This document shows, piece after piece, positions 113-26,967 of a DNA stretch of 38,843 nucleotides. How positions within the stretch are numbered: position 1 is the first letter of the stretch; the number at the start of each line of letters is the position of its first letter. The notes beneath the pieces were generated by a model. The model did not search any database. It saw nothing but the letters and a program-made list of their open reading frames with translations, and was not told where the DNA came from. Source of the stretch: an uncultured Lachnospiraceae bacterium (GTDB lineage Bacteria > Bacillota > Clostridia > Lachnospirales > Lachnospiraceae); contig CANRFJ010000023.1 in assembly GCA_947629865.1 (NCBI GenBank), forward strand, positions 1 to 38,843, in the 5' to 3' direction. A program made the position numbers and the translations under genes.

Positions 113-754
113 ATGGGAAATAAACATTACCTATTACAAGCCGATAGTGCAACAGATCCTGTCACAGCAGTTTCCGGGCCATTATGCGGCGCCATCTGTA
201 CAGTCTATCTGTTAGGGGAATTTCAAGCGGAACTTGAGCGGACATTGCTCAATAATTGCTGGAAAGCTGTCAACTATAAGGACCAAGCGTCGAATCCGTA
301 CAAGATTCAGAGATACCTGACATCGTTCTTCGATACTGACAATACGCTTGAGGTGTCTCTGGTAGCGATCTCGGATAGTCCACTGTCTGCCTTTAATGGG
401 GAAATGCTGGATGATCTGAAGAATGCGGGCATAACCAGCGCGCCAAAACTTCTTAAAGATTTTCCAAAAGATTGCGAGTATTTTATGGGAGTGTTTTCGT
501 ACGAATTGAATCCAGAACATCCAAAATCTCATTCAAACACAGAAAGTCGGCAAAAGAGTCCGGGCGAATACCATTATATCCTGCTTCACAAATGCGATAA
601 TGGCTGGGAGTATATAAACCCCCACGAAAATAAGTGGATAACTGCGGGAAAAATAGAAGAAGACGACCGTACACTTCCTGCAGGTTTTATACTCGGAAAC
701 TGGAAGTGGGAAAATTTCGGATTGGCAATTAAGAAGACAAACAAATCTAAATAG
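113..754 (+). CDS. Hypothetical protein, possible papain/C39-like cysteine peptidase fold
   Basis: The product is 213 residues, and I do not recognise the family with certainty. The ATG at 113 is chosen because AAGGAGG lies 8-9 bases upstream; an in-frame TTG at 29 has a weaker context. Near the N-terminus is GPLCGAICTVYLL (Cys25, then Gly-Ala and a hydrophobic helix), which resembles the catalytic-Cys helix of C39/papain-like peptidases. Near the C-terminus, EYHYILLHKCDNGWEYINPH places His154 at the start of a beta strand, followed by an Asn-Pro (Asn169). That is the usual order of Cys, His and Asn/Asp in the fold. No signal peptide or membrane segment is visible. It is the first gene of a same-strand series with the DUF2589-type genes and an amidase. 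The peptidase reading is inference from motif order only. It could instead be an inactive or unrelated cytosolic protein. Confidence 0.6.
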   Translation: MGNKHYLLQADSATDPVTAVSGPLCGAICTVYLLGEFQAELERTLLNNCWKAVNYKDQASNPYKIQRYLTSFFDTDNTLEVSLVAISDSPLSAFNGEMLDDLKNAGITSAPKLLKDFPKDCEYFMGVFSYELNPEHPKSHSNTESRQKSPGEYHYILLHKCDNGWEYINPHENKWITAGKIEEDDRTLPAGFILGNWKWENFGLAIKKTNKSK

Positions 755-798
755 CAAAATTTTCCGGATTGCTCCGGAAAATGGAAATGAGGAAATGG

Positions 799-1710
799 AT
801 GAATAAGGAAGAACAAAACAAGAGAAGTGAAACACTTTTACACAAGGAAGCGGAGCAACCAAAGGTGCCGCACAAGCAAAATAGCGAAAATACCTATATG
901 GACAACGATTTTATCGAGTTGAAAAGTTTGATCTATGCTCCGTTAGAGGCACTGGCGGAATCAAATTTCCAATTGCAGCGCTCAACACTGCGGGCGCTCC
1001 AGGAGATGGGTACATTACGAAAAGACGGGGATGAGTCCGTTATCCATCTAAAAACAACGAATCTGGCATACGAACACATAAAACCGGAACAGGAGGATGG
1101 CTACAGCGTAGAGAATATTCAGCTACAGGTGCCTACCATTTCTCTCATTCCGCTTAATAACCTGGCTGTGAAAAAAGCTGAAATCGACTTTTCCACAGAA
1201 ATCCATGTGAACAATAATGAGGAAAACAATTTCCAGATTTACGCAAGAATCTGCTCGCCTGAGCAGAGGGGAACAGATTTTTCCCCGAAAGTATCCTATA
1301 AGATGAAGGTGGAAACGCTTCCGGCGACAGAAGGTTTCTTGAGAATTCTGGATATGCTTGGGAGCAGTCAGGTTGGCCGGCAGTTGGAGAATAAGATACT
1401 TTTGCCGGACGGAAGCATCCAGTCAGCAGAAATCCAGGCTCTGTATCAGAGCAAGATGGAACTCCGCAATCGAATCAACTCTCTGCAGGCGCTTCATAAA
1501 ACTATCGCAAACAGGATCATGCAGATCCAGAACATGAGCGATTCGCTGGACGCAGATATGCCAAAGGCAATCAGCCGGAAACTGGAGTCGCTGCGGAAAT
1601 TGAAGACGAAAATCATGGAGGAAATCATGTATCTGGAGCTGGATTTAACGGAAAAGGATGTGCAGGAACAAAATGTTTCAGGAACAAAAAAACAAGGAAC
1701 AAATCCCTGA
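799..1710 (+). CDS. DUF2589-like protein with C-terminal coiled coil (paralogue 1)
   Basis: The product is 303 residues. The ATG at 799 has GAGG six bases upstream; earlier in-frame starts at 781 and 787 lack this spacing. Residues about 38-200 look like a divergent DUF2589 domain. They align with the downstream paralogue at LIYAPLEALAESN, at the strand around VPTISLIPLNNLAV, and at ATEGFLRILDML. Residues about 215-290 are charged heptad-like helix, a probable coiled coil. No signal peptide or membrane helix is seen, so it is probably cytosolic. DUF2589 has no function that I know of. Two paralogues side by side suggest a hetero-oligomer built on beta domains and joined by helices; that part is inference. 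Confidence 0.72.
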   Translation: MNKEEQNKRSETLLHKEAEQPKVPHKQNSENTYMDNDFIELKSLIYAPLEALAESNFQLQRSTLRALQEMGTLRKDGDESVIHLKTTNLAYEHIKPEQEDGYSVENIQLQVPTISLIPLNNLAVKKAEIDFSTEIHVNNNEENNFQIYARICSPEQRGTDFSPKVSYKMKVETLPATEGFLRILDMLGSSQVGRQLENKILLPDGSIQSAEIQALYQSKMELRNRINSLQALHKTIANRIMQIQNMSDSLDADMPKAISRKLESLRKLKTKIMEEIMYLELDLTEKDVQEQNVSGTKKQGTNP

Positions 1711-1717
1711 TGAGGTG

Positions 1718-1870
1718 ATGTCTGTGAGGGCGGAGCAGTTTCGGAGAAATCTGATCTGCTATCTCAATATCCGCCTGCTGCAGGATTACCTTCTTCGCGG
1801 GGATGAACTGGAGACCAGAATGATCTGGCTCAGTGATTTGGAACAAACTATAGAATGGGCGGGGCGGTAA
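1718..1870 (+). CDS. Small hypothetical protein between the two DUF2589 genes
   Basis: This is a 50-residue frame beginning eight bases after the preceding stop. A GAGG sits almost against the ATG, so translation may depend on re-initiation after the DUF2589-like gene. A longer start at 1673, overlapping that gene and preceded by AGGA, is also possible and would add 15 residues. The peptide is helical and charged (RAEQFRRNLICYLNIRLLQ) with no transmembrane stretch. It fills the space between the two DUF2589 paralogues neatly and lies on the same strand with tight spacing. I do not recognise it. It could be an adaptor or a chaperone for the coiled-coil partners, but nothing in the sequence proves this. 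Confidence 0.5.
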   Translation: MSVRAEQFRRNLICYLNIRLLQDYLLRGDELETRMIWLSDLEQTIEWAGR

Positions 1871-1895
1871 GTCCCGCTGAGAAAGGAGAATGTAT

Positions 1896-3050
1896 ATGGC
1901 AATATCAGATCAATTTCGGGGGCTGGATATGAAAAACCTGATCGGAGGCCCTCTGTCTGCAGCAGCAGACGCCAGCCTGGCGCTGGCAAACAGCACGGCA
2001 ACTTTTATCAACACGGTTGGATTTGACGAGAGGGGAAGGACGCGAACGGTAAAATTCGGCTACCAGCAGACATCTCAGAACGATGACGGAACTACCAATA
2101 ACGACGAGATGAATGTAGACATTCCGCTGTTAGCAATCACGCCGATCCCCAATCTGCAAATCGACAACGTAGACGTTTTATTTGACATGGAGGTAAAGGA
2201 AACCTCCAAAAGCGAGAGCAGTAACGACCTCTCTGCCTCAGGGAGTGCGACCATTGGTTTTCTCGGCTTTAAGATGACTGTGACGGGAAGCGTCAGCGCC
2301 CATCAGTCCAACACCAGAAGCAGCGACAATTCGGCCAAGTATCATGTGGAGGTCAACGCAAGCAACTACGGTACGCCGGAGGGACTGGCAAGAGTGCTCG
2401 ATATGATGGCGGCCAATATTTCACCGGCATTAATAAGTTCTACGCCGAAGGATGCGAACGGACAGGATCTGACAAAGGAAAAGAGAGAAAAGGTGGAGCG
2501 CCGAAAGCAGCTATCTTTGGCAGTGTCCGATCTGGAGCGTCAGGTAAACGCCGCCAGAAATGTGTATAACGAGCGGCTGACACAGTTCAGGCGGATTGCC
2601 TCCGCACAGCTGAATGAGTATTTGGCGAGAATCAGCAACGAGCTGTCTGCGCAGGAGGAAAAATTAAAAGGACTGGATCCGAGCAAAGACGCCGACTATC
2701 AGACGAACAAAAGCGCGATTGACGAGACTATTCAGAAGATAACCAATATGCGCGATGAAGTGATTGCCTCGTGGAATAATTTCCAGAACAATCTGGAGGG
2801 CCTGATGAATATTGTGGCCGATACCTCGGACACGAGTGGCGGGATATCTTCGGTGTTCGGATTAAAAATGCCCCAATTAGGGGAAAAAGATTCAATCAAA
2901 GCGATAAACTTCGCCAATAATGACAGCAGCCAATACGATGCCATGCTCACTATTCAGAATAAGTCAGTAGACGACAAAAAGAAAATGACAGCTTTGGAAA
3001 ACAGCTTGTCGGACAAAAAGAGAGAATATAATCTGGCGCTGACAGAATAA
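1896..3050 (+). CDS. DUF2589 domain protein with long coiled coil (paralogue 2)
   Basis: The product is 384 residues. AAAGGAG at about 1882-1888 favours the ATG at 1896 over the one at 1890. Residues 1-175 match what I know of DUF2589: a start of the type NLIGGPLSAAADASLALA, a strand block DIPLLAITPIPNLQIDNVDV, a Ser/Gly-rich low-complexity insert, and a GTPEGLARVLDMM helix. Residues about 195-300 and the last 30 residues are long, charged, heptad-like helices that probably form a coiled coil. There is no signal peptide or membrane span. It is the better preserved of the two paralogues and probably partners the gene at 799. Molecular function is unknown. Confidence 0.8.
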   Translation: MAISDQFRGLDMKNLIGGPLSAAADASLALANSTATFINTVGFDERGRTRTVKFGYQQTSQNDDGTTNNDEMNVDIPLLAITPIPNLQIDNVDVLFDMEVKETSKSESSNDLSASGSATIGFLGFKMTVTGSVSAHQSNTRSSDNSAKYHVEVNASNYGTPEGLARVLDMMAANISPALISSTPKDANGQDLTKEKREKVERRKQLSLAVSDLERQVNAARNVYNERLTQFRRIASAQLNEYLARISNELSAQEEKLKGLDPSKDADYQTNKSAIDETIQKITNMRDEVIASWNNFQNNLEGLMNIVADTSDTSGGISSVFGLKMPQLGEKDSIKAINFANNDSSQYDAMLTIQNKSVDDKKKMTALENSLSDKKREYNLALTE

Positions 3051-3082
3051 AAGAATCGACGTTGTTAAAAGGAGGAATTCTA

Positions 3083-3382
3083 ATGCCAAAAGGAGAAAGC
3101 AAGAAATCCTATTTGCAGGAAATACAGTATGTAAAGACCGTGACAATAGGAAGTATCAATCCAAACGTCCCGTTTTCGGACAAGAGCCGCGGGAGACAGG
3201 AGAACTTTTTGAACCGCTGCCTGTCCGGTCATCCCAAAGGAATTATACTCAGTAAAGATGTTGCCGTTGGATGCTTTCAGGCGGGCGAGCACAGCTTTAC
3301 ACTGGAGCGGACGACCTATCATGTAGGTTTCCGGAGAAAACCGGGATGGCTGACAGACGAGTCGGGAGGTGAAAAAGCATGA
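3083..3382 (+). CDS. Small hypothetical protein coupled to the amidase gene
   Basis: The product is 99 residues. The ATG at 3083 is preceded by AAAGGAGG with good spacing. Its last four bases overlap the amidase start as ATGA (3379-3382), a typical translational-coupling arrangement, so the two proteins are probably made together. It has a basic N-terminus, one cysteine-containing stretch (NRCLSGHPKGIILSKDVAVG) and an aromatic, arginine-rich C-terminus (TTYHVGFRRKPGWL). No membrane helix or signal peptide is visible. I do not recognise the family. Its coupling suggests an accessory, inhibitor or loader for the amidase, which is inference. Confidence 0.65.
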   Translation: MPKGESKKSYLQEIQYVKTVTIGSINPNVPFSDKSRGRQENFLNRCLSGHPKGIILSKDVAVGCFQAGEHSFTLERTTYHVGFRRKPGWLTDESGGEKA

Positions 3383-4353
3383 AAGGCAAAAAGAGCACGA
3401 AGGCAGGCAAGAACACGAAAGCCAGCAAGAGCACAAAGGCCGGCATGAGCACAAAGGCCGAAAAGAGCACGAAGGCCAGCAAGAGCGCAAAGGCCGATAA
3501 GAGCACAAAAGCCGGCATGAGCACAAAGGCCGGCAAGAACACGAAAGCCGGCATGAGCACAAAGACCGGCATGAGCACGAAGGCCGGCATGAGCACAAAG
3601 ACCGGTAAGAGCACGAAGGCCGGCATGAACACGAAAGCCAGCAAGAGCACAAAAACCGGCATGAGCACAAAGGCCGGTAAGAGCACAAAAACCGGCATGA
3701 GCACAAAAGCCGGTAAGGGCACAAAGGCCGGCATGAACACGAAAGCCAGCAAGAGCACAAAAGCCGGTAAGAGCACAAAGACCGGCATGAGCACAAAGAC
3801 CGGCATGAGCACAAAGACCGGCATGATCATAAAGGCCGGAAAAATAAATATCATAAGAAACCTGACAAAGATAAATGTGGTAAAATGTCTGGGGATCAGT
3901 CCGCCAAAATACATAGTAATCCACAGCACTGGCAATACGGCCTCTGCCCAAAACGAGAATCTCAACATTGTCAACAACAATCGCCACGGAATAGGGGCGC
4001 ATTACTCGGTAGATGAAAAAGATATTTACCAGGCTGTATTAGACGATCATAAAATATACCACTGCGGAACGGCGAATGTATATACGCAGAAACATTTGGA
4101 ATGTCGGAACAGCAATTCAATCGGGATTGAGATGTGTCAAAAGGACATGAAGGGGAATGTAGCCGAGGGTACAATTAAAAACACAGCTCTGCTCGTACAG
4201 TATCTAATGAAGATACACAATATTAATGAAAGCCATGTGCTCCGTCATTTTGATGTGGTAAGCAAGACCTGCCCGATTGCCTATGCGGGAACCACCGAAA
4301 AAAATAAGCGGTGGGGAGTTTTGAAAAAAAAGCTGGTGGGGAAAAGTAAATAG
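3379..4353 (+). CDS. PGRP-fold N-acetylmuramoyl-L-alanine amidase with N-terminal lysine-rich hexapeptide repeats
   Basis: The product is 324 residues. Residues 5-154 are 25 tandem copies of a six-residue unit, consensus (K/M)STK(A/T)G, which makes the N-terminal half strongly basic. Residues about 175-310 form an Amidase_2 (peptidoglycan-recognition) domain. The expected zinc ligands are visible: His182 in IVIHSTG, His290 in VLRHFDV and Cys298 in SKTCP, with SIGIEMC as the core strand. The predicted reaction is cleavage of the amide bond between N-acetylmuramic acid and L-alanine in peptidoglycan. There is no Sec signal peptide, so wall access would need lysis, a dedicated exporter or a phage-like route. 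The basic repeats could bind teichoic acid, DNA or membranes. A link with the DUF2589 proteins is inferred from adjacency alone. Confidence 0.87.
   Translation: MKGKKSTKAGKNTKASKSTKAGMSTKAEKSTKASKSAKADKSTKAGMSTKAGKNTKAGMSTKTGMSTKAGMSTKTGKSTKAGMNTKASKSTKTGMSTKAGKSTKTGMSTKAGKGTKAGMNTKASKSTKAGKSTKTGMSTKTGMSTKTGMIIKAGKINIIRNLTKINVVKCLGISPPKYIVIHSTGNTASAQNENLNIVNNNRHGIGAHYSVDEKDIYQAVLDDHKIYHCGTANVYTQKHLECRNSNSIGIEMCQKDMKGNVAEGTIKNTALLVQYLMKIHNINESHVLRHFDVVSKTCPIAYAGTTEKNKRWGVLKKKLVGKSK
3391..3840 (+). repeat. 18-bp coding minisatellite, 25 units
   Basis: Twenty-five in-frame 18-bp units encode (K/M)(S/N)TK(A/T)(G/S). The first position alternates between Lys and Met, and the final unit is degenerate (MIIKAG). 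Because the period is a multiple of three, copy-number change by slippage or recombination would lengthen or shorten the protein without breaking the frame. The opposite strand is open through the array, but it encodes only a Cys/Leu- or Ala/Phe-rich periodic shadow. Confidence 0.95.
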
Positions 4354-4526: not shown

Positions 4527-5081
4527 TTACTTTTGATGATCTGCGGAGTATTGATACCCGCAACCCGCCTGAAAGGCCAAAATCATCAATTCAATATTTT
4601 TAGCTGAATACTCCCTATATCGGAAATGGTACAGCATGGTTTCCACAAAACTGTTCACTTTTTTCTGTTGATTTTCCAGAATTGACACACTTTCCGGTTC
4701 AGAAAAAAGGTAAGAGCGCAAAAAGCAACTCACAAATTCTTCATTTATAAAAACCAGTTCCGCCACTTGAGACGGCACTGTAATCTGGAAAACCTTATGC
4801 CTCAGCAACCAGTAACTCAGATATGCATAAATTTTTGACTCGTGTACCTTCTTGATATCCTGAAATTCCTTCAGGCGGTCGATATCCACGAAATAATCCA
4901 CAATAACATGTTTCAAAATGTCATCCGAGATGACCACCTTGTCCTGAAGTTTTCTCTTGTTAACAAAATCTTCCAGCAAATCATTCAGCCACTCATATCT
5001 GCTTCGAATTTTTTCTTCACCGAATTTATCAATCAAATATTTATATGTTTTAGGCGCAGCCTCTGCACAATTCTTATCCAT
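4527..5081 (-). CDS. Hypothetical helical protein, third gene of the alarmone-synthetase operon
   Basis: The product is 184 residues. Its ATG (5081) overlaps the stop of the 68-residue gene by eight bases, with GAGGAG just upstream, so translation is coupled. The sequence is soluble and predicted mostly helical, rich in Lys, Glu and aromatics (for example KTYKYLIDKFGEEKIRSRY near the start). It has no membrane segment and no catalytic motif that I recognise. Local base use is clearly more AT-rich than the neighbouring tuf gene, consistent with horizontal acquisition. Its position behind a RelA/SpoT-type gene makes an antitoxin, sensor or effector role possible, but that is speculation from context. 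Confidence 0.7.
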   Translation of the reverse strand: MDKNCAEAAPKTYKYLIDKFGEEKIRSRYEWLNDLLEDFVNKRKLQDKVVISDDILKHVIVDYFVDIDRLKEFQDIKKVHESKIYAYLSYWLLRHKVFQITVPSQVAELVFINEEFVSCFLRSYLFSEPESVSILENQQKKVNSFVETMLYHFRYREYSAKNIELMILAFQAGCGYQYSADHQK

Positions 5082-5271
5082 GATACTCCTCTCTTACCAG
5101 CCTTTGATCCATCAAAAAACAACCACAGGAACTGATATACCTGTCGAAGTAATAGTAGTGCAGACCTTCCAGTCCCCCTGTAAACTCCGTGCCATGATTT
5201 GGCAGATTGATTTTAGGAAATGTCCCGTTTTTTAATTCTTCAATGAACTGTTTTCCCTTTGTCTTATTCAT
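5074..5271 (-). CDS. Small hypothetical protein, second gene of the alarmone-synthetase operon
   Basis: The product is 65 residues from the ATG at 5271, which has GGCGGTG upstream. A GTG at 5280 would add three residues. It begins about 25 bases after the synthetase stop and overlaps the next gene by eight bases. The sequence has a charged N-terminus (NKTKGKQFIEELKNG) and a Gly/Tyr-rich middle (GGLEGLHYYYFDRYISSCG) with no membrane span. I do not recognise it. Small size and tight coupling to a RelA/SpoT-type enzyme are typical of toxin-antitoxin layouts, so it is a candidate antitoxin, without direct evidence. Confidence 0.6.
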   Translation of the reverse strand: MNKTKGKQFIEELKNGTFPKINLPNHGTEFTGGLEGLHYYYFDRYISSCGCFLMDQRLVREEYHG

Positions 5272-5295
5272 CTCGCACACCGCCTTGTCTGATTA

Positions 5296-6237
5296 TTATA
5301 CCGTTATCTTTTCTCTAAAATCTTTCATCTCACCCTCTATTTCTTCCAGACGAAGAATGAAACTATCCACTTCTTTTACTATCGCATCGGATGTCTCCCA
5401 TCCTCCTTTGGGCCGCACAACCACTGCCTCCGTCTCATAGACATCTCGCATTTCATCGCCAAGATCATTGGACAGTCTAGTAAGTTTAGCCAGAATATCT
5501 GACATCTTCTCTAAAGCCGTATGGCTTTTATTGTTATCCTTTTTGTATACATAATTGTGGTCGCAATCACTCCATGCTTCGTCATATATAGTTCTGACCT
5601 GAATCTCTATATAGGTTTTGCAAAAACTCACAGTATAATGTATACTACGATAGCCTTTCTTGTGTCGTTTAACGTCCAACCCCTGTTCCTTATATGGTTC
5701 TATGCTGTCCCCTTCCGCATAATACACTTTGGGTATTTCCGCCTGGAATTTTCTTCCCTCAATATGTTCCAACGGCTTATCTTTCTCATACTTCCTGTCT
5801 TCATCCATTGGAAAAGCCTCTAAAATTTCCCGATGAATGTCTAACCACTTTCCCCTGTAATTAATGATAACTCTAAGCCCAATCAAGTCTGTAATGACAT
5901 CCTTATAATTTTCTACATTAATTTTAGCATATTTGTGCTCGTCATCCCCCAGCCACTCATGGCGTTTACTAATTACCTTTCCTATCAGACTTTCCACCGA
6001 CTTAACTCTCTTTGTGTGCAAATGCACACCAGGAAATTGCTCAATAATATCCCATATCTTCTTCTTGACGTCCTCGCAGTAATCTTTCCATTTACCATAA
6101 TCGTCATAAATCTGATGACAAATCTGCTCTGTATTTTGGGAGTGTCCCTTGGCACAGTCAACTACATTCATGTCTTCCACTTTTTGCTGCAATTTACGAT
6201 CTCGCAGAAGCATCTCCCAAAATTCAATCCACTCCAT
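5296..6237 (-). CDS. RelA/SpoT-domain small alarmone synthetase, possibly a toxSAS-type enzyme
   Basis: The product is 313 residues, with GAGGAG ten bases before the ATG. A RelA/SpoT nucleotidyltransferase domain spans about residues 75-265. The basic segment RVKSVESLIGKV (77-88) corresponds to the ATP-binding region. DLIGLRV (117-123) carries the metal-binding Asp, GYRSIHY (195-201) is the G-loop, and EIQVRT (211-216) holds the second acidic residue, followed by a DH pair at 226-227. All core residues look intact, so pyrophosphate transfer from ATP to a nucleotide, or to tRNA as in some toxSAS enzymes, is plausible. There is no HD hydrolase, TGS or ACT domain. About 75 N-terminal residues and 45 C-terminal residues are extra to the core. 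It leads a three-gene operon with two unknown proteins. Whether it is a housekeeping alarmone synthetase or a toxin cannot be decided here. Confidence 0.85.
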   Translation of the reverse strand: MEWIEFWEMLLRDRKLQQKVEDMNVVDCAKGHSQNTEQICHQIYDDYGKWKDYCEDVKKKIWDIIEQFPGVHLHTKRVKSVESLIGKVISKRHEWLGDDEHKYAKINVENYKDVITDLIGLRVIINYRGKWLDIHREILEAFPMDEDRKYEKDKPLEHIEGRKFQAEIPKVYYAEGDSIEPYKEQGLDVKRHKKGYRSIHYTVSFCKTYIEIQVRTIYDEAWSDCDHNYVYKKDNNKSHTALEKMSDILAKLTRLSNDLGDEMRDVYETEAVVVRPKGGWETSDAIVKEVDSFILRLEEIEGEMKDFREKITV

Positions 6238-7702: not shown

Positions 7703-7731
7703 ATTATAGGGCATATAGACTAAAAAAGCAA
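7703..7731 (-). promoter_or_regulatory. Predicted tuf promoter with its -35 box inside the 27-bp repeat
   Basis: On the minus strand TTGCTT (7731-7726) and TATAAT (7708-7703) are separated by 17 bases. The -35 box belongs to the tuf-proximal unit of the five-unit 27-bp array, and only this unit is followed by a -10 box. Confidence 0.75.
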
Positions 7732-7854
7732 CCCCTTTTTAGTCTGCTAAAAAATCAATTCTTTTTTAGTCCGCTAAAAAAGCAACCCTTTTTTAGTTTG
7801 CTTAAAAGGCAAGTCTTTTTTAGTCTGCCAAAAAAGCAACGCCCTTTTATCCTT
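7720..7854 (-). repeat. 27-bp tandem repeat, five units, between fusA and tuf
   Basis: Units begin at 7720, 7747, 7774, 7801 and 7828, each 27 bp and imperfect. Most units contain CTAAAAAAG and CTTTTTTAG separated by five or six bases, a nine-pair AT-rich hairpin. In the mRNA each unit could act as a weak stem with a U-run. As DNA, the A/T tracts recur every 27 bp and each unit carries a TTGCTT-like hexamer. Confidence 0.9.
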
Positions 7855-7864
7855 TTGTGTACAT

Positions 7865-9985
7865 TTATTTGCCGTTCTTCTGATCAAGCACTTTGTCCTG
7901 AACATTTTTCGGGCATTTTTCGTATCTCTCAAAGAACATGGAATAGTTACCGCGTCCCTGAGTGGTAGAACGAAGTTCTGTGGAGTAGCCGAACATTTCC
8001 GCCAGCGGAACAAACGCTCGAACGATCTTGCCGCCGCCCAGGTCATCCATTCCCTCGATCTGGCCTCGCTTTGCATTCAGGCTTCCGATTACATCGCCCA
8101 TGTATTCCTCCGGCATTGTTACCTCAACCTTCATGATCGGCTCCAGCAGTACGGCTCCGCCCTTCTGCATTGCCTCCTTGAAGGCCATGGAACCGGCAAT
8201 GTGGAATGCCATCTCACTGGAATCCACCTCATGGTAGGTACCGTCGTAGCAGTTTGCGTGGATACCAAGTACCGGAAATCCTGCCAGAATACCGGACTGA
8301 GCAGCCTCCTGAATACCCTCGTCAACGGCCGGAATATATTCCTTAGGAATGGCGCCGCCGACTACGGTGGACTCAAACTCATAAGTGGTCTCGCCGTTCG
8401 GATCAATTGGCGTAAAGCGCACACGGCAGTGTCCATACTGTCCACGACCACCGGACTGCTTCGCATATTTGCTGTCGATCTCCACTTCTTTTGTAAAGGT
8501 TTCCTTATAGGCAACCTGCGGAGCTCCTACGTTTGCCTCTACATTGAATTCACGGAGCAGACGGTCTACAATGACTTCCAGATGAAGTTCGCCCATTCCG
8601 GCAATGATAGTCTGTCCCGTCTCCTGGTCTGTATGCGCGCGGAAGGTCGGATCCTCCTCTGCCAGTTTTGACAGCGCCTCGCCCATCTTGCCCTGGTCGT
8701 TCTTTGTCTTGGGCTCGATTGCCAGCTCGATAACCGGCTCCGGAAATTCCATCGACTCAAGAATTACCGGATGGTTCTCGTCACAGATCGTATCTCCTGT
8801 AGTTGTCAGTTTGAAACCAACGGCTGCGGCGATATCGCCGGAATATACCTTGTCCAGTTCGCTCCGCTTGTTGGCGTGCATCTGAAGGATACGTCCGACA
8901 CGCTCTTTCTTACCCTTGGTCGCATTCAGTACATAGGAACCTGAATTCAGTGTTCCGGAATACACGCGGAAAAATGCAAGTTTTCCGACGAATGGATCTG
9001 ACATGATCTTAAATGCCAGAGCGGAAAACGGTTCCTCGTCAGACGAACGGCGGGTTACTTCGTTGCCGTCGTCATCCACACCAGTGATGTCCGGAATGTC
9101 TGTCGGCGCCGGCATGTACTCGATTACGCCGTCTAACATTTTCTGAACGCCCTTGTTCTTATATGCGGAACCGCAGTATACAGGCACTGCCTCACATGCG
9201 ATGGTTCCCTTCCTGAGCACCCTCTTGAGATCCTCTACGGACGGCTCCTCGCCCTCCAGGTACTGCATCATCAAATCGTCGTCCATGTCGCAGATTTTCT
9301 CCACAAGGTTCTCATGCCATTCCTGGGCGAGTTCCTTCATGTCATCCGGAATCTCGGTAATCTCGATTTCCTCGCCTTTATCATCTCTGTAGTAATATGC
9401 TTCCATTTCGAACAAATCAATCAGGCCGATAAAGTCGTCCTCTTTTCCAATCGGAATCTGAACGGGAATTGCATTTTTGCCCAGACGGTCAATGATCGTC
9501 TGCACAGAATAGTAAAAATCTGCACCCATCTTATCCATCTTGTTGATGAATGCCATACGCGGTACGTTGTATGTGTCGGCCTGACGCCATACGTTCTCAG
9601 ACTGCGGCTCAACACCTGCTTTTGCATCAAATACGCCTACCGCACCATCCAATACACGCAGGGAACGCTCTACCTCTACGGTAAAGTCAACATGTCCCGG
9701 GGTATCAATGATATTGATGCGGTGCTCCAACGCACCCGGTTTTGCTTTGTGGTGGTCTTCCAGTGTCCAGTGACAGGTGGTAGCGGCAGATGTAATGGTA
9801 ATACCACGCTCCTGCTCCTGCTCCATCCAGTCCATGGTGGAAGCGCCATCATGAGTCTCACCAATTTTATAATTGACACCGGTATAGTACAGAATACGCT
9901 CTGTCAGCGTCGTCTTACCGGCATCGATATGAGCCATAATACCAATGTTTCTGGTACGCTCTAATGGATATTCTCTTCCAGCCAA
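7865..9985 (-). CDS. fusA: Elongation factor G
   Basis: The product is 706 residues, normal for EF-G, the GTPase that drives ribosomal translocation. The N-terminal G domain shows [17 protein letters not shown] and [10 protein letters not shown]; domains II-V follow, including [10 protein letters not shown] in domain IV. The start is a TTG at 9985, supported by AGGAGG eight bases upstream and by family alignment from residue 2 onward. There is no ATG in the right place. It lies between rpsG and tuf, with unusual repeat-filled spacers on both sides. Confidence 0.98.
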
Positions 9986-10027: not shown

Positions 10028-10723
<696 letters not shown>

Positions 10724-24450: not shown

Positions 24451-26967
24451 ATGGAAAAGCAAAAACGTCTTGGGAAGATTGTCCTGTCAGGGCTTCTGGC
24501 GCTGGCTATGACAATTAGCGGTATGTCCGGCACACCCGCTGACGCCAAGGCAAAAAAAGCAGTTTTGAAGACAAAGACCGTGAAACTGAAGGTTGGGAAA
24601 AGCAGGAAGATAACAATCAAAAACAAGAAAAAATCCTGCAAATACACCTTCAAAAGCAACAAAAAAAAGGTTGCCACCGTATCTAAAAAAGGAAAGATCA
24701 AAGCCAAAAAGGCGGGTACGGCAAAAATCACAGTAAAAGAAACACGCAAGGGCAAGAAGTCAAAGGCACGCAAGGTAGGGGTAGTAAAGGTAAAAGTTAC
24801 CGGCAAGAATACTGACAAGAATACCGACAAGAATACCGACAAGAATACCGACAAAAACACCGATACGAACACCAACAAAAACACCGACAAGAACACCCAG
24901 GCTCCCACCGGTACTCCGACGCAGAAGCCTTCACCGTCGGCGCCGACATCACCCTCTGCCAACCCACCCCAGTCAGGGGACTCGGCCTCTGTAAAAGTCT
25001 ACACAGACAAGATGGACGAGAGCAACAAGGTTGCAGAGGTATACGGCATCGGCACCACACCGACTCCGTCCCCCACTCCTGCTACCGGCCAGGCTACACC
25101 GGAGCCGACGCCGCAGGTTCTAGTCAATGTGACCATGGAGGACGGCAAGACAGATCCTGTTTCCCCGCGGGGCAGCACATCCATCGATATTATTGAGGGA
25201 GGCGCCAACAATACCTCCAAATGCGCCGAGGTGACTAAGCGTACATCCGACTGGCACGGGGCTCAGATTGACCTCACGAAGCTGGTCGTTACCGGCAATG
25301 ATTACGAGATTCATTTTTATGCAAAGCAGTCTACCGGCGAAGATAGCAAAATCGACCTGAGCTGCCAGTATATAGACGCAGATGGCACGACAAAATATGA
25401 CGGCATCGGTACCTTTGATCTGCCGAACGATACGTGGACAGAGTGCGTGAAGACGCTGACCGTACCGGAGCACACGGGCGACTTTTCCATCTACTGGCAG
25501 TCTGTATACAACTCAGGTAACTCTATGGATTTCTGTCTGGACGAGATAACCGTACAGGGTGTTCTCAAATCGGCGGACGATGAGGAAAAACTGCCGGATC
25601 TGAGCGCCGGACTGGTAAAGGGCGCCGTCGGCAACCCGATTGTCACCTCACGTCTGACAGCCGATCCCTGGGCCATGGAGTATAACGGGAGGGTGTATGT
25701 ATATGGAACAAACGATTCCCAGCAGTACGAGCTGGCTCCAAACAAGGATAACAACTACGCAAAGATTAACACGCTGAACTGTTATTCCTCCGCCGACATG
25801 GTGAACTGGACAGACCACGGCACCATCAACGTCAAGGGCGCTGCCAAATGGGCCGCTAACTCCTGGGCTCCGGCAGCTGCACACAAGAAAATCAATGGAA
25901 AGGAAAAATTCTTCCTCTATTTTGCCAACAATGCAAGCAGCATCGGCGTGCTGACCGCCGACAGTCCGGTCGGGCCGTGGACGGATCCAATCGGCAAACC
26001 GATCATTGACCGCTCGATTGGAAACTGCGGCGAGAGCGACGTTGCCTGGCTCTTTGATCCAGCCGTGCTGGTAGACGATGACGGACAGGGCTATCTGTAC
26101 TTCGGCGGCTTCGGCGATGCAAAAGATGCCGCATACAACAAAAATCCCAAATGCGCCCGCGTCATCAAACTGGGCGACGATATGATCTCCACTGTGGGAG
26201 ACGCCGTTACCATTGACGCCCCGTATATGTTTGAGGACTCCGGCATCAACAAGATAAATGGCAAATACTACTACAGTTATTGCACCAACTGGACAGCAGA
26301 GGCTGGCGCCGATCCCAAAGTCGGCTCTGCCACAATCGCAGTCATGGAGAGCGACAATCCTATGACAGGCTTCAAATATGTGGGCGCCGTCATGAAAAAT
26401 CCGGGTAATTACTTCGGCGCATATGGAAACAACCATCACTGCTTCGCGCAGTTCAATGGCAAAATGTATTCCTTCTACCACACAAAAGCCGACACGGTTC
26501 GAATCGGAACCAAGCAGGACTTCCGCACCACCTATGTGGATAAACTGGACCTGGGCGACAACGGAGACTTCACAAACGAAGACGGCTCTGTCGCTGTCAC
26601 CGCACTCACCAAAGCAGGTGTGGCCGCTGTCTCCACTGTAAATCCGTATGAGACTGTGGAGGCCGAGACCTTTGCCTTGGCGGACACGATGGGAACCGCA
26701 GCCAACACGCTGAGCAGTTCCAACGCCGCCTGGAGCACTAACCTCTCGCTGTTTAACGGCAAGATCGGCGCATATGCCGGCGTAGCCGAAGTAGATTTTG
26801 GAGCAGACGGCGCAACGGAACTCACCATGAAACTGGGTGACGCCACCACCGGAAAGTACGAAGACGTAACAGTCAAACTGCAGAAGAAAATTACCGGAAA
26901 GCACACCATTTACTTTGAATTTGATAAGTGCAATGTGCTGATGGATTCCTGGTGCTTCAAAAAATAA
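24451..26967 (+). CDS. Secreted multidomain GH43 glycoside hydrolase (arabinofuranosidase/xylosidase type)
   Basis: The product is 838 residues, with AAGGAGG seven bases upstream. The order is: signal peptide (about 1-32); lysine-rich BIG2 module (35-115); an Asn-Thr-Asp-Lys repeat linker (about 118-148); a Pro/Thr linker; a CBM4/9- or CBM22-like beta-sandwich (about 225-370); a five-blade GH43 catalytic domain (about 390-700); and a C-terminal CBM6-like half-module. Putative catalytic residues are Asp405 (TADPWAM), Asp536 (LFDPAVL) and Glu595 (MFEDSGINKINGKYYYSY). The FEDSGINKINGKYY form recalls arabinoxylan arabinofuranohydrolases. Predicted role: extracellular debranching of xylan together with the esterase upstream. 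The exact sugar specificity is not determined. Confidence 0.9.
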   Translation: MEKQKRLGKIVLSGLLALAMTISGMSGTPADAKAKKAVLKTKTVKLKVGKSRKITIKNKKKSCKYTFKSNKKKVATVSKKGKIKAKKAGTAKITVKETRKGKKSKARKVGVVKVKVTGKNTDKNTDKNTDKNTDKNTDTNTNKNTDKNTQAPTGTPTQKPSPSAPTSPSANPPQSGDSASVKVYTDKMDESNKVAEVYGIGTTPTPSPTPATGQATPEPTPQVLVNVTMEDGKTDPVSPRGSTSIDIIEGGANNTSKCAEVTKRTSDWHGAQIDLTKLVVTGNDYEIHFYAKQSTGEDSKIDLSCQYIDADGTTKYDGIGTFDLPNDTWTECVKTLTVPEHTGDFSIYWQSVYNSGNSMDFCLDEITVQGVLKSADDEEKLPDLSAGLVKGAVGNPIVTSRLTADPWAMEYNGRVYVYGTNDSQQYELAPNKDNNYAKINTLNCYSSADMVNWTDHGTINVKGAAKWAANSWAPAAAHKKINGKEKFFLYFANNASSIGVLTADSPVGPWTDPIGKPIIDRSIGNCGESDVAWLFDPAVLVDDDGQGYLYFGGFGDAKDAAYNKNPKCARVIKLGDDMISTVGDAVTIDAPYMFEDSGINKINGKYYYSYCTNWTAEAGADPKVGSATIAVMESDNPMTGFKYVGAVMKNPGNYFGAYGNNHHCFAQFNGKMYSFYHTKADTVRIGTKQDFRTTYVDKLDLGDNGDFTNEDGSVAVTALTKAGVAAVSTVNPYETVEAETFALADTMGTAANTLSSSNAAWSTNLSLFNGKIGAYAGVAEVDFGADGATELTMKLGDATTGKYEDVTVKLQKKITGKHTIYFEFDKCNVLMDSWCFKK

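Follow-up and report, generated by a model that had tools for sequence, protein, structure and literature searches.

Among the closest described systems to the operon reported here are those in which an endolysin opens the cell from within. Type 10 (holin-endolysin) secretion is represented by YenLC of Yersinia entomophaga and TcdE of Clostridioides (PMC10847048, PMC9527704) and is reported to act in a lysing subpopulation of cells (PMC10847048). In Pseudomonas, a pyocin endolysin is reported to cause the explosive lysis of a subpopulation, with release of cytosolic content (PMC4834629). For regulation, the nearest precedent is the cwpV switch of Clostridioides difficile, described as a pair of inverted repeats around a 195-bp segment with a terminator inside, acted on by a tyrosine recombinase (PMC2784873).

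The operon lies in a window of 38,843 nucleotides from an uncultured Lachnospiraceae bacterium (GCA_947629865.1), which is the whole of contig CANRFJ010000023.1, so that the DNA upstream of base 1 is missing. It shares with type 10 secretion a leaderless endolysin-type hydrolase in the operon and, in some loci, signal-peptide-free cargo; expression in a subpopulation, as reported for type 10 secretion (PMC10847048), would fit the possible inversion switch considered below. Unlike type 10 secretion, it has no conserved holin-like gene but a pair of DUF2589 proteins and a small protein, SP2. As to explosive cell lysis, the likeness would lie in endolysin lysis of a subpopulation and release of cytosolic content, whereas the genes and the trigger differ (PMC4834629). 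We tentatively favor, at a little short of an even chance, a chromosomal, non-phage module that joins a pore to an endolysin under phase-variable control and serves self-lysis or release, the pore and lysis functions being those we infer.

Gene content and recurrence

An original prediction, made from the letters of the sequence, had proposed six same-strand genes, and all six open reading frames were confirmed (Table 1), together with the ATGA overlap by which the last two were said to be joined (SP2 stop TGA at 3380–3382, amidase start ATG at 3379–3381). The predicted lack of signal peptides agreed with a scan of Kyte-Doolittle hydropathy only, in which 0 of the 6 proteins had a strongly hydrophobic N-terminus and no holin was seen among them.

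Table 1. Features of the operon in the window
Feature	Positions	Strand	Description
First gene (pep)	113..754	+	213 aa, cytosolic, no family; possible cargo or passenger
dufA	784..1710	+	DUF2589 paralogue with helical tail, lacking the Ser/Thr hairpin; possible TTG start at 769
Small gene between dufA and dufB	1658..1870	+	Motif like LNxRLL...W, by eye
dufB	1896..3050 (alternative start 1890)	+	DUF2589 paralogue with N-terminal helix, long beta-hairpin and coiled-coil tail; candidate pore former
dufB hairpin, residues 106-140	2211..2315	+	Hydrophobic and Ser/Thr positions alternate
SP2	3083..3382 (frame opens 3062)	+	Conserved core protein of about 97 aa
Amidase	3379..4353	+	PGRP/Amidase_2 protein, an N-acetylmuramoyl-L-alanine amidase of the endolysin type; signal peptide not seen
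18-bp tandem repeat	3391..3839	+	Encodes the Lys-rich extension at the amidase N-terminus

Recurrence was assessed in a set of 91 loci. Of 264 dufB relatives, the best 80 supply its named loci, so conservation is stated here for near kin; six loci were removed as duplicates of named contigs (L053–L058, the same as L121, L071, L069, L085, L140 and L065), and six order or genus loci with a divergent DUF2589 and no SP2 match (L029, L059–L063) lie outside the 91. Within the set, all three of dufA, dufB and SP2 are present in 84 loci, with a median span of 2.6 kb, SP2 is found in 86, dufA has counterparts in other loci, and the gene order is kept across phyla. The small gene matched nothing in Pfam, PHROG or NCBIfam, and by eye it has counterparts of matching position and motif in many loci. 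SP2 is predicted to fold as beta-alpha-beta-beta (model pLDDT 81), and its alignments contain invariant residues of the type GxxNP...PKG...EH...YHxGFxRKP. The hosts are Lachnospiraceae, and the operon also occurs in Treponema, in Chitinispirillales and on plasmids. Two cultured commensals, Eubacterium sp. 14-2 (L104) and Lachnospiraceae COE1 (L076), have the module. Among 392 genomes of the order, nine carry SP2, of which eight are DUF2589-positive by Pfam and the ninth has an adjoining piece of dufB; five of 13 DUF2589 genomes are without SP2, which counts against the explanation favored here.

The first gene stands apart. It was found only in its own genome (1 of 200 genomes of the family), was not found in viral contigs, and matched no family in Pfam, PHROG, NCBIfam or PDB. 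The Cys-His-Asn order that suggested a papain/C39-like fold for its product is visible by eye. Pfam, NCBIfam, PDB and hhalign to C39-like neighbors of other loci gave no papain/C39 match, and the assignment as a C39/papain-like peptidase is not supported. The recurrence by which the original prediction proposed to judge the system extends to five of the six genes. That no described system has this composition holds in the literature and database searches made. A recurrent operon of Lachnospiraceae, undescribed and non-phage, is well supported as a module, and the earlier interpretation as a whole is partly supported.

Paired DUF2589 proteins and a predicted pore hairpin

The two genes read as DUF2589 paralogues are indeed a pair, as PF11655 matches dufA at E 2.2e-15 (57.7 bits) and dufB at E 4.5e-39 (134.7 bits) against a Pfam gathering score of 23. 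The AlphaFold2 model of dufB (pLDDT 77, pTM 0.61) contains two 30-residue strands at residues 91–120 and 127–156, forming a hairpin that is its least confident region (pLDDT below 50 at 105–145). The alternation of hydrophobic and Ser/Thr positions in this hairpin exceeds that of shuffled columns (p 0.0008 and 0.0019). The pattern is present in 64 of 92 dufB proteins, against 0.25 expected, and in 0 of 90 dufA proteins and 2 of 540 other open reading frames. An alternating transmembrane hairpin of the kind found in beta-barrel pores is thus seen in dufB as a sequence pattern in a predicted hairpin, making it a candidate beta-barrel pore former.

Compared to lysenin, aerolysin and binary-toxin pores, dufB has a similarly long, alternating, Ser/Thr-rich hairpin but is cytosolic, has no signal peptide and shows no sequence kinship with a solved structure; sequence searches against solved structures matched its helical tail only. 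Foldseek found no match of the dufB model in PDB at E ≤ 0.001, lysenin, aerolysin and binary-toxin pores recurring in weak rows with E of 0.1–0.6 and TM-scores of 0.08–0.13, and a second look covered the helical tail. These weak matches to toxin pores would also suit a device directed at other cells, in which the DUF2589 pair would form a translocation pore in the target membrane and carry wall hydrolases (in most loci) or other enzymes (in some) into host cells or neighbors; the producer's own lysis would then be an exit route only. We regard this as unlikely, although it deserves serious attention; neither dufA, dufB nor SP2 has a conserved receptor-binding domain in Pfam, PHROG or NCBIfam.

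Wall hydrolases, other enzymes and the relation to phage

The window amidase matches PF01510 (Amidase_2) at E 9.2e-21, belongs to PHROG amidase/endolysin families and has solved relatives in 1yb0 and 3hmb. Its zinc ligands had been described as intact, and its His, His and Cys align with those of the prophage amidase 1yb0, which we take to be the zinc ligands there. The polybasic character ascribed to it was traced to an 18-bp repeat of 24.9 copies with 79% matches, and Lys makes up 26% of residues 1–150. This extension could bind surfaces, as a delivery device might require.

Hydrolases accompany the core closely. Among 60 fully flanked loci, 50 have one within 3 kb and 10 are without; within 4.5 kb, one is found in 69 of the 91 near-kin loci and none was seen in 22. 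Hydrolase reading frames number 78 in 477 kb near the core and 3 in 671 kb farther out, a density about 37 times as great, with profiles seeded from loci of this set plus L029 and L147, a bias that favors the near side. Of the genes directly upstream, 64 of 76 were scanned (the window, L021–L028, L096, L144 and L145 were left out), and 41 matched GH24, 37 Amidase_2 and 2 M15. Lineages exchange one hydrolase fold for another: Amidase_2, GH24, CHAP, GH73, M15, M23, GH108 and muramidase are all represented, the window's genus having both CHAP and GH73 and Chitinispirillales having M15. N-terminal hydropathy is low in 63 of 63 amidases, without a hydrophobic N-terminus among them. A search for small hydrophobic reading frames near the core of the 91 loci gave no conserved holin-like gene in the operon: same-strand candidates with a hydrophobic stretch occur in 17 loci, and at least two stretches in only 2. 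A holin encoded elsewhere in the genome would escape such a search.

Such hydrolases belong to the same PHROG families as phage endolysins, as a decayed prophage lysis module would have it. Unlike phage endolysins, they stand in a chromosomal operon with no phage neighbors and no holin. The prophage origin that the original prediction had named as its own refutation was already disfavored and seems hardly tenable: PHROG has no match for dufA, SP2 or the small gene and a weak one for dufB, two loci lie in viral contigs, 50,697 phage records yielded one weak match, and the conserved gene order likewise argues against it.

The remaining loci bear on delivery. Those free of hydrolases often carry another enzyme, such as a C39-like family (c50) in L091, L102 and L104 (by Pfam on L091 only), Exo_endo_phos in L105 and a LanM-like DUF4135 in L113; PF12919 glycosyltransferases occur in L027 and L028, and annotated toxin-like genes lie near the Vibrio plasmid copies. 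However, the hydrolases are of the endolysin type, cutting from inside, and in a family scan covering 133 of 143 neighbors each effector-like family was present in at most 3 of the 133, among the matches listed (first 25 families). That effector-like cargo occurs in a minority of loci only also counts against the release model. Between delivery or release with a wall hydrolase and lysis or injection, the two readings first offered for the locus, we lean to lysis or release.

A possible upstream switch and route of release

A recombinase-type inverted site pair lies upstream in 27 of the 91 near-kin loci, compared to none of 91 downstream and none in shuffled sequence, and 17 of the 27 have a recombinase in the locus. 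The pair is present in loci such as those in the range L069–L085 and absent from L076 and L104. The segment measures 128–204 bp in most loci. A terminator-like hairpin faces the operon in 11 of 27 segments (0.3 expected), while such hairpins face away in 7; the segments contain no conspicuous promoter, and no flipped segment was found between close relatives among the assembled ones. No site pair was found in the window's own genome, where the contig ends upstream of the operon; L027, from the same genus, carries one. The arrangement resembles cwpV in its inverted repeats, segment size, internal terminator-like hairpin and tyrosine recombinase (PMC2784873). It differs in that the recombinase often adjoins the switch, the facing hairpin is present in 11 of 27 only, and inversion was not seen among the assembled relatives.

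Downstream, many Lachnospiraceae loci carry a STAS/SpoIIE partner-switching set (STAS family in 36 of the 91 loci) and a SpoIIE-HAMP-HATPase sensor protein. Both would suit non-lytic wall remodeling in development or stress, with the hydrolase tethered to the membrane by dufA and dufB and gated by the STAS/SpoIIE set. We consider this improbable, since leaderless GH24 and amidase endolysins without a wall-binding domain are lytic tools, and neither a phase switch nor a patchy distribution, here 10 of 37 genomes in the window's genus, befits a development gene. Patchy presence, the sensor module and self-toxic parts would equally be expected of an abortive-infection defense, in which an infected cell would be killed by its own pore and endolysin. 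Such a role is very improbable: the six proteins gave no PADLOC model match beyond E 0.15, defense genes are not recurrent neighbors (JetD in 1 of 64 upstream genes), and an inversion switch is no fast sensor of infection.

For the self-lysis or release module, we propose the following. dufB would oligomerize at the cytoplasmic membrane, on its inner side, where hairpins rich in Ser/Thr would build a beta-barrel pore; the hairpin-free dufA, and SP2 with the small gene, may control or cap this pore. The hydrolase would exit through the membrane lesion and open the wall; in the window the wall cutter would be the Lys-rich amidase, and the first gene may supply cargo or a passenger. DNA inversion, by a terminator flip, would leave the module OFF in most of the population and limit lysis or leakage, with its release of cytosolic cargo, to a few cells. 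The overall action would be like type 10 secretion without a recognizable holin. More doubtful, though still a real possibility, is the fuller proposal of a self-permeabilizing machine of non-phage origin in gut commensals, in which a cytosolic two-paralogue DUF2589 beta-pore and the adaptor SP2 serve as an inside-acting holin substitute and export interchangeable endolysins and other leaderless enzymes, with the terminator-flip switch ON in few cells. A surface-acting version in Treponema or Proteobacteria would need an outer-membrane step too.

The newness of the system rests on its composition, namely a DUF2589 pair with SP2, no holin and exchangeable endolysins; on a stricter view it could be a variant of endolysin-based release. 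If the proposal is true, lysis or leakage by design, without a phage holin, would exist in many Firmicutes of the gut and in some Proteobacteria and Spirochaetes, and the DNA switch would confine it to few cells. DUF2589, for which a single passing mention was found in the literature, would gain a testable function, and commensals would have a way to release folded proteins from the cytosol.

Recurrence of the dufA-dufB-SP2 core

The contig carrying the operon (G000:C23) is represented entire, in a genome of 2.64 Mb, and its first 4.35 kb hold six ORFs on one strand with short gaps or overlaps. Pfam assigned two of the six proteins to DUF2589 (PF11655; the paralogues dufA and dufB) and one to Amidase_2. 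The remaining three had no family in Pfam, PHROG or NCBIfam, searches in which SP2, a core protein of ~97 aa, gave a sub-cutoff PTEN_C2 row (E 0.12). A literature search returned one passing mention of DUF2589 and none of PF11655, and a search on combined terms returned no description of this DUF2589/SP2/hydrolase system.

Among 61 near genomes, DUF2589 was present in 10, each belonging to the window's genus (10/37 there); across the order it was detected in 13 of 392. Every positive genome of the genus had at least two matches, which in G025 share one frame. Searching named genomes with dufB yielded 264 relatives. The set of 91 loci consists of the best 80 of these (mostly from Lachnospiraceae and also from Oscillospiraceae, Treponema, other Spirochaetes, Chitinispirillales and others), two contigs from a viral collection, the window itself and eight further loci from the window's genus; six loci with a divergent DUF2589 and no SP2 were kept out. 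All three core genes were found in 84 of the 91 loci (median span 2.6 kb), with the order A-B-SP2 in 66. Five of the seven exceptions are truncated by a nearby contig end (L089, L094, L116, L130, L131), and the other two have no SP2 in the ~1,170 (L110) and ~780 (L118) bases downstream. Plasmid copies in Vibrio and one deltaproteobacterium carry the core as well.

Across the order, SP2 occurred in 9 of 392 genomes, eight of them among the 13 with DUF2589; the remaining genome, G215, has a fragment of dufB next to SP2 (E 1.4e-21). The 5 of 13 DUF2589 genomes without SP2, and the six loci kept out of the set, count against the recurrence. The dufA-dufB-SP2 operon is almost certainly a real module.

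In an alternative layout (L029, L060, L061, L063), SP2 is missing and a single longer DUF2589 protein precedes two proteins of ~280 and ~190 aa. At L029, whose DUF2589 is divergent and which lies outside the 91, a phage-type lysozyme and an ELLD endolysin-like domain protein are still there. Elsewhere in the window, the genes at 4527-6237 (-) may represent a toxin-antitoxin set of the alarmone type, or a stress set.

Positions of side features in the window and at compared loci
Locus	Position	Feature	Remark
Window	4527-5081 (-); 5074-5280 (-)	Two small ORFs	After synthetase gene, same strand
Window	5296-6237 (-)	RelA/SpoT-like synthetase	Weak GTP pyrophosphokinase matches, best E 8.1e-05
Window	7720-7848; 10081-10205	Tandem repeats, 27/54 bp and 49 bp units	Flank ORF 7865-9985
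Window	7865-9985	ORF	Presumably EF-G, beside a presumed EF-Tu gene
Window	24798-24897	12-bp repeat, 8.3 copies	Near start of 838-aa ORF
Window	24451-26967	838-aa ORF	
L027	7387-8988	PF12919 glycosyltransferase domain, stand-alone	Pfam
L028	4973-6499	PF12919 glycosyltransferase domain, stand-alone	Pfam
L148	406-1929	PF12919 glycosyltransferase domain, stand-alone	Annotation; adjoins the module
L096	17-7120	2368-aa protein: Listeria-Bacteroides repeats, fn3, Big_2	Immediately 5' of dufA
L105	9001-10152	dufB broken into two ORFs	Adjoins Exo_endo_phos protein

Wall hydrolases and other neighbours

A profile search placed a peptidoglycan hydrolase at most 4.5 kb away in 69 of 91 loci, and within 3 kb in 50 of the 60 having 3 kb on both flanks. 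There were 78 matches in 477 kb within 3 kb of the core versus 3 in 671 kb farther out, a comparison in which the seeds, drawn from Pfam-verified members, favour near families. Upstream neighbours (n=64) included a GH24 lysozyme match in 41 and Amidase_2 in 37, many of these hydrolases being two-domain enzymes. The fold is CHAP or GH73 in other loci of the window's genus, M15 at two Chitinispirillales loci, GH108 at L144 and M23 at L133; a muramidase lies near the deltaproteobacterial plasmid copy, and Vibrio sp. 16 (L148) has no annotated hydrolase within 8 kb. In a PHROG search of ten hydrolase-type and core proteins, the hydrolases were phage endolysin types whereas the core proteins were not. 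Hydropathy revealed an N-terminal leader in none of 63 amidases. The usual partner is very probably a wall hydrolase that has to cross the membrane, and the independent, repeated recruitment of differing wall cutters is the strongest hint to function.

Many Lachnospiraceae loci have, downstream of SP2, a STAS protein (36/91), a GNAT-like protein (27/91) and a large sensor protein that combines Cache, HAMP, SpoIIE and HATPase domains; we take the STAS and sensor genes to be a partner-switching set. The 133 scanned neighbours scatter thinly over 180 families. Effector-like neighbours occur at a minority of loci: the stand-alone glycosyltransferase-domain proteins of L027 and L028 (see table), a C39-like family at three loci (one member scanned with Pfam), Exo_endo_phos at L105, LanM-like DUF4135 at L113 and toxin-like annotated genes near Vibrio copies. 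A further such family, c11 (311-469 aa, invariant GDYD and QHG motifs), without a match in Pfam, NCBIfam or PDB, adjoins the module in Lachnospiraceae and Treponema at seven loci (L064, L079, L096, L115, L116, L137, L138). Delivery into other cells, the main rival to self-lysis or release, appears unlikely.

A possible upstream inverted-repeat switch

Inverted pairs of the site AATACGATATT, spaced 100-500 bp, lie at most 4 kb upstream in 27 of 91 loci, among them L027 of the window's genus, and neither downstream in any of the 91 nor in shuffled sequences; 18 further loci had less than 2.5 kb of upstream sequence when scanned. The assembled sequence of the window's genome, which lacks the operon's own upstream part, has no such site. 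A tyrosine recombinase of a single family occurs in 30 of 91 loci. Of the 27 segments between paired sites, 11 contain a terminator-like hairpin that faces the operon and 7 one that faces away (0.3 expected per strand). No promoter signal was found in these segments, and no flipped segment was seen among assembled relatives. The cwpV gene of Clostridioides difficile has a 195-bp inverting segment and expression in about 5% of cells, with a terminator proposed within the OFF transcript (PMC2784873); the site pair and hairpin match that switch as sequence features. Three Treponema-type loci (L136, L138, L143) have 19-31-bp inverted repeats of different sequence adjoining their own recombinase.

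A candidate pore and the proposed outcome of the module

The dufB model (71 sequences; pLDDT 77, pTM 0.61) has a helix (12-42), one long hairpin (strands 91-120 and 127-156) and a coiled-coil tail. Alignment columns 109-122 and 125-136 alternate between hydrophobic and Ser/Thr residues (column shuffle, p 0.0008 and 0.0019); the flanking strands alternate as well (p 0.04, 0.01) but are Ser/Thr-poor. A rule-based scan found the hairpin pattern in 64 of 92 dufB (0.25 expected), 0 of 90 dufA and 2 of 540 other ORFs, and by eye it is retained in Vibrio and deltaproteobacterial dufB copies. Foldseek against PDB gave no row at E <= 0.001; its weak rows (E 0.1-0.6, TM-scores 0.08-0.13) include recurring pore-state beta-toxins (lysenin, probability 0.95; aerolysin, 0.80) and also unrelated helical proteins. 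dufB is predicted to be the pore, a proposal that we regard as evenly balanced.

The 91 loci have no conserved holin; a small hydrophobic same-strand ORF is near in 17, with more than one hydrophobic stretch in two. In its working, the module would resemble the type 10 secretion system of holin-endolysin release, but it has no recognisable holin and is therefore not classed there. We tentatively favour self-lysis or release as the module's outcome, at somewhat less than even confidence.
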